From Olsenella profusa DSM 13989 (lineage in GTDB: Bacteria; Actinomycetota; Coriobacteriia; Coriobacteriales; Atopobiaceae): DNA of 64,000 nt. Positions 55,284 to 58,051 of the stretch are shown here, piece after piece. A model generated the notes under the pieces. The model did not search any database. It worked only from the letters and a program-made list of their open reading frames with translations, and was not told where the DNA came from. The DNA lies in the NCBI RefSeq assembly GCF_030811115.1, contig NZ_JAUSQK010000001.1, forward strand, positions 620,001 to 684,000. Direction: 5' to 3'. Position numbers and translations under genes: made by a program. Position 1 is the first letter of the stretch, and each line of letters begins with the position of its first letter.

Positions 55284-56807
55284 GTGGGGCGGAAGATCTC
55301 GACACGGGTGACGTATCGCCCGTTTGCGCACGGGGACGAGCGTGCCCTGGCACGACTGTATGCACGGATCTGGCTTGCGGGCGAGGACGCCGACCGTGCC
55401 CGCACTACCAGCAGGTTCCTCGTCTCCCACTATCTGGCGGAGTCCACGCACGGCGTTGTGGCCGAGGCTGGTGGCACTGCGGTGGGCGCCGCGCTGCTGC
55501 GTGCGGGCGATGGGGCACGCCTGGGCAGCGGCGAGGACGCGCCGACGCGGCCCACCGATGCTTGTGCCATGGACCTCGACCTGGACGAGCTGCGCATGGC
55601 GCAGGACGTCTGGGACACCCATGCCCTGCGCGGAGCTGCACAGCTCACGCTGCTGATGGTCGATCCGGGGACGCATGGCCTGGGCGTGGGCCGCGAGCTT
55701 CTGGCCCGCGCACGCACGGTGATGCATGACGCCGGTGCCACCGACCTCTTCCTCATGACGGACGACAGCTGCGACACGGGGTTCTATGATCACATGGGAC
55801 TCACGCGGCAGGTCATGCGCACGGGACCCCCCTCCATCTACCTCTATGACGGCAAGGTGGGGACGAAGCCCGTGGGGCGCCTTGCCCCCACGCCATCCGG
55901 TCGCATGCACCTGGGCAATGCCTTCTCCGCGCTCATGGCCTGGCTTGCCGCAAGGAGCCAGGGTGGCCGCATGGTCCTGCGCATAGAGGACCTCGACCCC
56001 CGTGCGCGGGATCCCCACGCCGCCGACCTCATCATGCGGGATCTCGACTGGCTGGGGCTCTCGTGGGACGAGGGCCCCTACCATCAGAGCCGGCGGGGCG
56101 ACCTCTATCGCGACGCCATCGATCGCCTGCGGTCTCAGGGCCTCACCTATCCCTGCTTCTGCACCAGAAGCGAGCTCCATGCCGCAAGCGCCCCACATGC
56201 CTCCGACGGCACCTATGTGTACCAGGGAACCTGCAGGAAGCTCACGCCCAGGCAGGTCGCCGAGAGACGCAGGGTCCGTCCGCCCGCCGTACGCCTGCGC
56301 GTGCCGGATGAGGATGACCCCACCGGCACCATAGCCCTTGACGACCTCTGCTATGGGCCGCATGAGGAGACGCTCGCGCACGACTGCGGGGACTTCCTCG
56401 TCGAGCGTAGCGACGGTGTGATTGCCTACCAGCTTGCCGTGGTGGTCGATGACGGGCTCATGGGCGTGACGCAGGTCGTGCGTGGCAACGACCTTCTGGG
56501 GTCAAGCGCCCGCCAGGCCCATCTGGCGCGACTACTGGGCTTCGCTCCGCCCGCATATGGCCATGTTCCCCTGCTCATGGGCGCGGACGGGCGGCGGCTC
56601 TCCAAGCGCGACCATGACCTCGACCTGGGTGCCCTGCGCGCAGCGGGCGTCTCGCCGCGGCGCGTCGTGGGGCGCCTGGCCGCGCTGGTGGGACTTGCCG
56701 AGCCGGACGAGGAGGTCGACCCCGAGAAGCTGGTGGGACGCTTCTCATGGGAGACGCTGCGTGCTCACCGCACTAACGCGACGGTTGGGGATACGTTTCT
56801 GTTGTGA
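55284..56807 (+). CDS. gluQ: Fused GNAT acetyltransferase and glutamyl-Q tRNA(Asp) synthetase
   Basis: A 507-residue fusion. Residues 1-190 are a GNAT acetyltransferase ('VTYRPFAHGDERALARLYAR', acetyl-CoA site 'VDPGTHGLGVGRELLARA', 'GFYDHMGLT'). Residues 198-507 are GluQRS, a truncated GluRS-like enzyme that puts glutamate on queuosine of tRNA-Asp: HIGH-type 'APTPSGRMHLGNAF', 'LRIEDLDPR', a zinc site 'CFCTRSEL' with 'YVYQGTC', and KMSKS-type 'RRLSKRDHD'. Start GTG 55284 has AGGAGG 6 nt upstream; no conserved residues lie before it. The linker is short and in frame, so it is not a sequencing join. The role of the GNAT half is unknown. Confidence 0.9.
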   Translation: MGRKISTRVTYRPFAHGDERALARLYARIWLAGEDADRARTTSRFLVSHYLAESTHGVVAEAGGTAVGAALLRAGDGARLGSGEDAPTRPTDACAMDLDLDELRMAQDVWDTHALRGAAQLTLLMVDPGTHGLGVGRELLARARTVMHDAGATDLFLMTDDSCDTGFYDHMGLTRQVMRTGPPSIYLYDGKVGTKPVGRLAPTPSGRMHLGNAFSALMAWLAARSQGGRMVLRIEDLDPRARDPHAADLIMRDLDWLGLSWDEGPYHQSRRGDLYRDAIDRLRSQGLTYPCFCTRSELHAASAPHASDGTYVYQGTCRKLTPRQVAERRRVRPPAVRLRVPDEDDPTGTIALDDLCYGPHEETLAHDCGDFLVERSDGVIAYQLAVVVDDGLMGVTQVVRGNDLLGSSARQAHLARLLGFAPPAYGHVPLLMGADGRRLSKRDHDLDLGALRAAGVSPRRVVGRLAALVGLAEPDEEVDPEKLVGRFSWETLRAHRTNATVGDTFLL

Positions 56808-57024: not shown

Positions 57025-57101
57025 GCGGCGTTACCTCAGCTGGATAGAGGGTCTGACTACGAATCAGAACGTCACAGGTTCGAATCCTGTACGCCGCACC
57101 A
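57025..57101 (+). tRNA. tRNA-Arg (ACG)
   Basis: A 77-nt cloverleaf with encoded CCA. The acceptor GCGGCGT pairs with ACGCCGC, the anticodon stem TCTGA/TCAGA encloses CTACGAA with anticodon ACG, and the T arm is ACAGG-TTCGAAT-CCTGT. A34 would be edited to inosine by TadA to read CGN codons. Confidence 0.96.
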
Positions 57102-57188: not shown

Positions 57189-57369
57189 TGTGGGCGCGAT
57201 GCTTCTGGCATGTGGGTGCCTTTTGCGACATGTGGGTGCGATTCTCCCACGATGGCTTCCAGCGACCTGCGATTTTGTCGATGTCATCCGGGAGATTCGC
57301 ACCCACATGCATCGATTGACACCCACAGGAAGCAAAAGGCACCCACACGAATGCAGTGACACCCACAGG
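57189..57369. repeat. 20-bp-periodic TGTGGGTG repeat array in inverted arrangement
   Basis: TGTGGGTG occurs on the plus strand at 57211 and 57231, with a degenerate copy at 57189. Its complement CACCCACA occurs at 57300, 57320, 57340 and 57360, each exactly 20 bp apart. The 12-bp spacers are partly shared between the two halves: CCTTTTGC follows the copy at 57211 and, on the other strand, the copy at 57340; CGATTCTCCC/CGAATCTCCC follows 57231 and 57300. So a block was duplicated in inverted orientation around a centre of about 60 bp, with one unit inserted on the right. Twenty bp is close to two helical turns, as for arrayed protein sites or iterons. Confidence 0.8.
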
Positions 57370-57409: not shown

Positions 57410-57869
57410 CTATGATGGGGCGATCAGGTAGAAGGCCCATACGGCGACGGTCCGCCTGAGGACGGCAGGTTCCCGCTCGAGCTCCATGATGCGGCGCTCG
57501 TACTCCTGTCGCTCGCGGCAACGAATCTCGCGCTGTTTGACGATGGCCTCGCACTTCTCCCTCTTGAGGCGCTCCACCTGATTCCTATGTCACACCTGAG
57601 GGCATCAGTTCCCACGAGGCATCCCCTGCACTTGGCCTCTTTCCAGTGATCATGACATGCCCGATGCGCTTATGGCCACTGAGGCTCGAGGGCAGGCCCA
57701 CCGAGGCAAGGGTGGCGCTTGGCGTCTCGCCCGCCTCGTATCAGCGCATGGCCCCTTCCTTGAACGCCTTGGAATAGGTGATGTACCGGGCCGAGACGTC
57801 ATCGACCGCATCGAGTTCGATGAGCTCGACACGCTCTTCCGGCGTGAGCCGTCCATCCTTCATTGCCAC
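57410..57869 (-). pseudogene. Decayed HTH protein resembling OrfA of an IS3-like element
   Basis: From GTG 57869 or ATG 57863 the minus strand encodes 'RLTPEERVELIELDAVDDVS' and 'YITYSKAFKEGAMR', then a TGA at 57743-57741 where an Arg codon (CGA) is expected. The same frame goes on with 'YEAGETPSATLASVGLPSSL' and 'GHKRIG', a second HTH half. A frameshift then gives 'HDHWKEAKCRG', and another gives a coiled coil 'NQVERLKREKCEAIVKQREI' running to a stop at 57410. One nonsense change and two frameshifts mark it as dead. This layout recalls the short HTH/coiled-coil OrfA of IS3-family elements; no OrfB is present. Confidence 0.6.
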
Positions 57870-58051
57870 CCCTGGGGTCGTTTGAGCCACGAGAAATCAT
57901 ATGGGGAAGACTGGGGAAGACGTTTCCCCCGGCCGCACACAGGGGTCATATGGGCATATCGAATGGTACTGGCGGCGTTCCACCTGCGCTCCCTCCCATC
58001 GGGGTGCCCATGGGACACGAGCGGATGGCATGCGCATGATCAGAACTGTGT
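57870..58051. other. Short gap with no recognised feature
   Basis: This 182-bp gap between the pseudogene start and the PAS regulator stop shows no RNA, terminator or repeat I can support. Confidence 0.3.

Follow-up and report, generated by a model that had tools for sequence, protein, structure and literature searches.

What is the array of short inverted motifs that lies next to a tRNA-Arg gene in Olsenella profusa DSM 13989? The stretch analysed here (64,000 nucleotides, bases 620001–684000 of a 2.617-Mb single-contig genome; hereafter, the window) contains, at 57189..57367, a series of 8-bp motifs, TGTGGGTG, which an earlier note, made from the sequence alone, described as an inverted duplication that gained a unit and interpreted as a possible protein-binding array, the origin or end of a lost element, or the source of a hairpin RNA. 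This array is one copy of a dispersed, non-coding, intergenic family in O. profusa. The copies are numerous and dispersed, all those tested lie outside genes, and each consists of an asymmetric centre of fixed length flanked by mirror-image arms built of motif units at a fixed period; the centre is related across species, and the arms are specific to a species or to a copy.

A dispersed intergenic family in Olsenella profusa

The layout of the family is (TGTGGGTG-N12)n, a fixed 61-bp centre and a mirrored array. In the whole genome, TGTGGGTG-N12-TGTGGGTG occurs 65 times compared to 3 times for the reversed-pattern control, and TGTGGGTG-N61-CACCCACA has 28 exact occurrences, with none for its control. 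The inner motifs are 69 bp apart, start to start, and further motifs follow outward after 20 bp and then after 20–22 bp; there are one to five units per arm, and the architecture is the same in all copies except for a few that are degenerate or interrupted. A sequence-only profile of the TGTGGGTG family (R1) recognizes about 35–38 sites in this genome, degenerate and interrupted ones included, the range reflecting how the weakest sites are counted. With so many sites elsewhere, the array is not a one-off local duplication, the outcome that the earlier note had set against its own interpretation: of the two signs by which such a duplication was to be recognized, absence from the same locus in close relatives was indeed observed (in four relatives, the tRNA-Ser/tRNA-Arg pair is kept and the element is absent), but absence of copies elsewhere was not.

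The window copy (no strand assigned; R1 match at genome positions 677209–677328, 94 bits) contains six exact TGTGGGTG motifs at the places originally reported, two on the plus strand (57211..57218 and 57231..57238, base 57231 being the first of a 77-bp core) and four on the minus strand (57300..57307, 57320..57327, 57340..57347 and, outermost, 57360..57367). The steps are exactly 20 bp, the two facing inner motifs are separated by 61 bp (previously given as about 60), and the distance from 57231 to 57300, start to start, is 69 bp, as in other intact copies. A degenerate outermost motif of the left arm (TGTGGGCG, 57189..57196, plus strand) lies 22 bp outside the next one; a third motif at 20–22 bp is usual in other copies. 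The pieces said to be shared between the halves in inverted order, CCTTTTGC and CGA(A/T)TCTCCC, are present. Within the core, the two halves of an inner dyad, both conserved among copies (TCTCCC at 57243..57248, plus strand, core positions 13–18, and its counterpart at 57289..57295, minus strand, core positions 59–65), enclose the asymmetric conserved centre (57262..57280, minus strand), which reads CGACAAAATCGCAGGTCGC on that strand. Inverted duplication with a gained unit is an understated description, given that every intact copy in the genome has this arrangement and that the number of units varies among copies and between strains.

All 33 O. profusa elements tested are located outside called genes, at 77% coding (genes were called by a simple script, so that their borders are approximate), and 13 of them lie between convergent genes, compared to 23 of 133 intergenic gaps overall. 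The genes scanned next to the elements encode, among others, ABC transporters, an S1 protein, fructose bisphosphatase, a ParA-type ATPase, alpha-amylase and biotin ligase; several have no Pfam match, and most neighbours of identifiable family are ordinary housekeeping genes. A tRNA gene adjoins three of the 33 copies, so that the notion of a site where mobile DNA integrates finds no backing in this neighbourhood. The tRNA surroundings of the window array are incidental, and the tRNA-Arg(ACG) gene (57025..57101, plus strand) is context only because, together with tRNA-Ser, it is present in the four relatives that lack the element. The copies are unevenly clustered along the chromosome, near-identical neighbouring copies occur 1.4 and 3.7 kb apart, and a different module has taken the place of one arm in several copies.

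The cores show on average 69% identity among copies, and the TGTGGGTG motif is approximately 98% conserved. The conserved parts of the core are TGTGGGTG, the inner TCTCCC/GGGAGA dyad, ACAAAA and CAGGTC, with many near-random positions in between; such local conservation in otherwise diverged cores implies position-specific constraint.

The closest genome, that of O. profusa F0195 (~99% identical), has a similar set of sites (~35–38). Between this genome and F0195, the arm length differs by whole units at seven orthologous loci (+20 at 199156, 569550 and 1061350; +19 at 1031621; −21 at 293976; +60 at 179964; −60 at 181349). At 381554, the core is inverted between the strains in collinear flanks, and the F0195 core best matches the core of the same locus in reverse orientation (68 of 77 positions). 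One F0195 element is represented in this genome by a collapsed remnant, and two strain differences of ~360 bp are unrelated to each other. A 5.6-kb stretch between two copies in the same orientation is absent in F0195, where a single element marks the junction; a deletion by simple crossover between elements (1264–1270 kb) was rejected because the F0195 junction element lacks the structure of a clean hybrid between them.

A large strain-variable region (994938–1023005 in this genome, 5603–37664 of contig C69 in F0195) has element copies at or near its borders. The DNA neighbouring this region is shared, at 83–98% identity, with Olsenella sp. Marseille-P4559, where the shared DNA contains open reading frames (ORFs) judged by eye to be ankyrin-repeat-like, LXG-like and RHS-repeat-like.

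A centre shared across species and arms that are replaced

R1 was run against genomes of the family (140) and of the class (398), and outside O. profusa it matches only in Olsenella sp. Marseille-P4559, with two copies; a pattern scan of genome contigs for TGTGGGTG likewise had O. profusa and Marseille-P4559 among the matches listed, and the TGTGGGTG family is absent from three congeneric genomes. The two Marseille-P4559 copies are embedded in a stretch that is 83–98% identical to O. profusa, which suggests that they have probably moved horizontally.

Scans made independently of TGTGGGTG recovered this design in relatives, built of different motifs. Inverted arrays were sought without a preset motif in 400-kb samples: the top matches in O. 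profusa were TGTGGGTG-type words, and the top words were different in Olsenella G002 (CAGAATGCGCTTTTCCGTGAG units with a 31-bp period) and in Marseille-P4559 (TCGTGCGTACGCACGA palindromes, i.e., palindromic arms). All elements examined in these two genomes (12 of 12 and 8 of 8, respectively) are outside called genes, and their centres have CGTTTGC[C/G]CAG[T/G]TG in common. The centre found family-wide is an asymmetric sequence of 14 bp, CGTTTGCCCAG[T/G]TG, placed between inverted species-specific arms. A 33-bp profile (R2), built exclusively from centres of the G002/Marseille-P4559 type, has at least 17 matches in each of the genomes G002, G162 and G027, 12 in G045 and 7 in G018, whereas genomes of other bacterial families have no more than one or two each.

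The arms around the R2 centres are alike among the copies within one genome and different between genomes, except for close relatives. Of 63 distinct centre copies, 68% are flanked by perfectly inverted arms of ≥9 bp (9% of random positions) and 51% by such arms of ≥12 bp (2.6% of random positions). In G027, the two arms consist of CGTCCAACGCGT-type units repeated every 30 bp, with the centre gap constant at 53 bp; in G001, the arm arrays have a period of 31 bp around a 55-bp centre. Some genomes have several arm families around one centre, and so does O. profusa (438430, ~963003, 968208 and 1036705).

The window centre, CGACAAAATCGCAGGTCGC, is probably related to the family-wide centre, CGTTTGCCCAG[T/G]TGgcgagaag. 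The right half of the latter, CCCAGTTGGCGAGAAG, has up to 15 of 16 matches in O. profusa cores (at 175109, CCCAGTTCGCGAGAAG), with a best local alignment score of 14 (the highest in 1,280 shuffles was 10). The match recurs at the same position and on the same strand in more than half of the O. profusa copies. In combination with the matching layout, these observations suggest that the TGTGGGTG centre of O. profusa is a divergent relative of the family centre; a common origin is probable, not proven.

Olsenella G002 also has a second dispersed array family, with CGAGTGGC words at 41-, 23- and 31-bp steps in alternating orientation (L258, L263, L264, L266).

Spread, binding or folding

We consider there to be about an even chance that the array is a copy of a non-autonomous intergenic element that has spread in O. 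profusa and belongs to a family-wide class, similar to repetitive extragenic palindromes (REPs) and miniature inverted-repeat transposable elements (MITEs). A lineage-specific DNA-binding protein would then recognize the arm units as double-stranded sites, with the unit spacing placing several protein copies on one face of the helix, assembled symmetrically around the centre, and a recombinase or transposase acting in trans would cut or exchange the DNA at the centre, whereby elements would be copied into the gaps between genes. The helically phased protein-binding array that was originally suggested persists as the favoured reading of the arms, since periods of 20, 30 and 31 bp all approximate full turns of the helix. 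The arms might gain or lose whole units by unequal exchange, copies might multiply also by local duplication, and the centre could in turn serve as the landing site of an RNA-guided insertion sequence (IS) of the IS1111 type. The presence of several arm families on one centre in a single genome fits mobilization better than the activity of a single host protein. A bolder proposal, which we make tentatively, is that the constant centre is an enzyme substrate and the phased mirrored arms are address labels rewritten in each lineage, i.e., that these elements make up a family-wide mobile or chromosome-organizing system that has no described precedent.

Several observations weigh against spread by mobilization within a single class. 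No Y1 transposase (PF01797) was detected in the O. profusa genome, no transposase recurs beside or between the copies among the scanned neighbours, and the mobilizing enzyme was not found. The two strains yielded no clean insertion with a target-site duplication: the one strain absence that was inspected closely is a collapse that left a remnant, and the other differences are located in rearranged stretches. The O. profusa copies are old and diverged, and for this reason their current mobility is unproven. Furthermore, R2 does not match the TGTGGGTG cores of O. profusa, the left half of the centre is different (ACAAAA in O. profusa versus CGTTTG in the family), and the TGTGGGTG cores are linked to the family by the right half of the centre together with the shared layout.

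Alternatively, the elements could be binding arrays that are useful to the host and are kept by it, instead of spreading for themselves, with a lineage-specific nucleoid or segregation protein that binds the phased units and organizes the chromosome or insulates transcription. The strict conservation of the motif inside diverged copies, the helical phasing of all three periods, the centre spacing that is fixed within species and the excess of elements between convergent genes would all be compatible with such a role, but the family is missing in three congeneric genomes, several unrelated arm families occupy one centre in a single genome, the neighbouring genes have no function in common and the copies cluster unevenly on the chromosome, so that we find this explanation rather doubtful.

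It also appears unlikely that what matters is the folded strand, that is, a hairpin formed by transcribed RNA or by single-stranded or cruciform DNA, with the conserved centre in its loop, in which case the arms would be free to change as long as they pair. The arms are wholly different between species and yet complementary, with up to 21 bp of perfect pairing, and the window copy is predicted to fold at −46 kcal/mol (z −7.6). Covariation in the inner 19-bp dyad is modestly in excess (score 0.125 versus 0.077, reached in 0 of 500 shuffles), but relatedness alone can produce such an excess, the outer-unit spacers do not pair across the arms above expectation, and the most strongly coupled columns are adjacent bases, not partners across the stem, indicating the exchange of entire modules. 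The replacement of one arm by a different module in several copies speaks against a requirement for pairing as well, and there is no Rfam match of note, so that a known structured RNA was rejected.

A passive satellite that has no partner protein, grows by minisatellite-like slippage and is moved by recombination, local duplication and horizontal transfer is improbable: the whole-unit length changes, the near-identical neighbours and the two Marseille-P4559 copies in a region so similar to O. profusa would be expected, but the fixed 61-bp centre, its relatedness across genera and the mirror symmetry at scattered loci would be left unexplained.

The insertion sequence in the centre and comparison with known repeats

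Two other copies are interrupted by an IS1111-type IS at the centre that corresponds to 57262..57280 of the window. The genome contains only two copies of this 1.65-kb IS, which are 100% identical and split their respective repeat centres at one and the same position (genome positions 1588506–1590163 and 1020863–1022520; L243, L244). The junctions lie between ...ACAAAACCG-CA and CA-GGTC, and the candidate target sequence is ACAAAACCGCAGGTCGC. The transposase matches PF02371 (Transposase_20; 34.5 versus a cut-off of 21.3) and, just below the cut-off of 29, PF01548 (DEDD_Tnp_IS110; 27.7). The inverted repeats of the IS are subterminal, and its 3′ non-coding region (369 nt) contains AAAACCGCA and, 35 nt later, GACCTG, which are the complements of the top and the bottom strand of the target, respectively. 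In the seekRNAs of IS1111 elements, a top-strand match followed by a bottom-strand match is the reported order (PMC11187229), and 2 of 1,000 shuffles yielded a match pair as good. Thus, the features that define membership, namely, a protein with DEDD and Transposase_20 domains, subterminal inverted repeats and ordered target matches, are present, and there is good sequence evidence that this IS is programmed to target the repeat centre. By analogy with the REP and attC landing sites of seekRNA-guided IS1111-type IS, both copies are in the centre and the guide-like matches are ordered (PMC11187229), the difference being that the landing site here is a repeat for which we found no description. 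An RNA-guided IS that is apparently programmed to a dispersed repeat of its host would follow a safe-harbour strategy, as described for REP and attC.

REPs and bacterial interspersed mosaic elements (BIMEs), with the REP-associated tyrosine transposases (RAYTs), are dispersed intergenic palindromes that serve as targets of IS110-family IS (PMC2817692, PMC1525189). The elements described here are similarly dispersed, intergenic and palindromic, and combine a short conserved piece with stems that differ between species; the conserved piece, however, is a 14-bp asymmetric centre and not a GT(A/G)G head, and the arms are phased multi-unit arrays. In the broad sense, the elements are REP-like, being extragenic, present in many copies and symmetrically inverted. 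A REP/RAYT system proper was rejected: the search for PF01797, negative in this genome, was positive in 5 of 14 control genomes, and although the O. profusa motif contains GTGG, no head sequence is shared by the arms of relatives.

The BOX elements of Streptococcus pneumoniae are modular, lineage-specific, MITE-like intergenic repeats with variable internal tandem units (PMC3049150). We liken the present family to BOX by layout only, as modular, intergenic, MITE-like, lineage-specific repeats with a variable number of tandem units; the tandem units of BOX lie inside, between fixed ends, whereas here they form outer arms mirrored around a fixed centre. With MITEs, the family shares short length, lack of coding capacity, inverted repeats, intergenic location, multiple copies and, probably, mobilization in trans, and differs in that the part conserved between species is internal, not terminal. 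Neither a target-site duplication (with one strain difference inspected closely) nor a parent transposon was found, and among the neighbours scanned, no transposase gene is flanked by element copies as its ends.

Iteron origins and plasmid centromeres such as parC are arrays of short sites with a near-helical period and a fixed spacer; the present elements differ in being mirrored, not direct, and in having tens of chromosomal copies. No Rep or Par system was found with the elements examined, one of which adjoins a gene for a ParA-type NUBPL-like ATPase. A replication origin or remnant of an iteron plasmid was rejected given that the scanned neighbours are housekeeping genes or have no Pfam match and include no initiator, and a phage or plasmid origin given that the phage and plasmid collections contain no similar DNA; pattern scans of viral sequences returned ten isolated half-motif matches or none. 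For the end of a tRNA-integrated element, the small share of copies beside tRNA genes and the intact, element-free tRNA pair of the relatives are contrary evidence, and no repeat of the tRNA end was reported near the array; nothing suggests that a single lost element had its origin or terminus here. Gene cassettes were dismissed because the genes between neighbouring copies are ordinary or have no assigned family, and CRISPR arrays or tandem interspaced guide RNA (TIGR) arrays, the latter as defined previously (PMC12045711), because the arrays are mirrored, the spacers conform to a consensus and the scanned neighbours include no cas or tas genes.

We found no description of such a family in the literature searched, which covered few subscription journals, in agreement with the initial impression that no named element has this form; provisionally, the centre-plus-arms family appears to be novel. 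Species-specific intergenic repeats are common, but here the centre is kept across species and the arms are replaced wholesale, the new arms retaining the mirror symmetry, the period and the centre spacing. These elements would provide a natural comparison set for a DNA-recognizing system whose address changes while its catalytic or assembly site is kept, and the centre-plus-arms element is a precise bait for finding the protein.

Adjoining the array, at 57640–57880 of the window (minus strand), is a decayed transposon-related helix-turn-helix ORF with a weak PF20310 match, for which no tie to the element was found. An ORF at 55308–56807 (plus strand) appears to combine a GNAT acetyltransferase domain with a glutamyl-tRNA synthetase-like domain.
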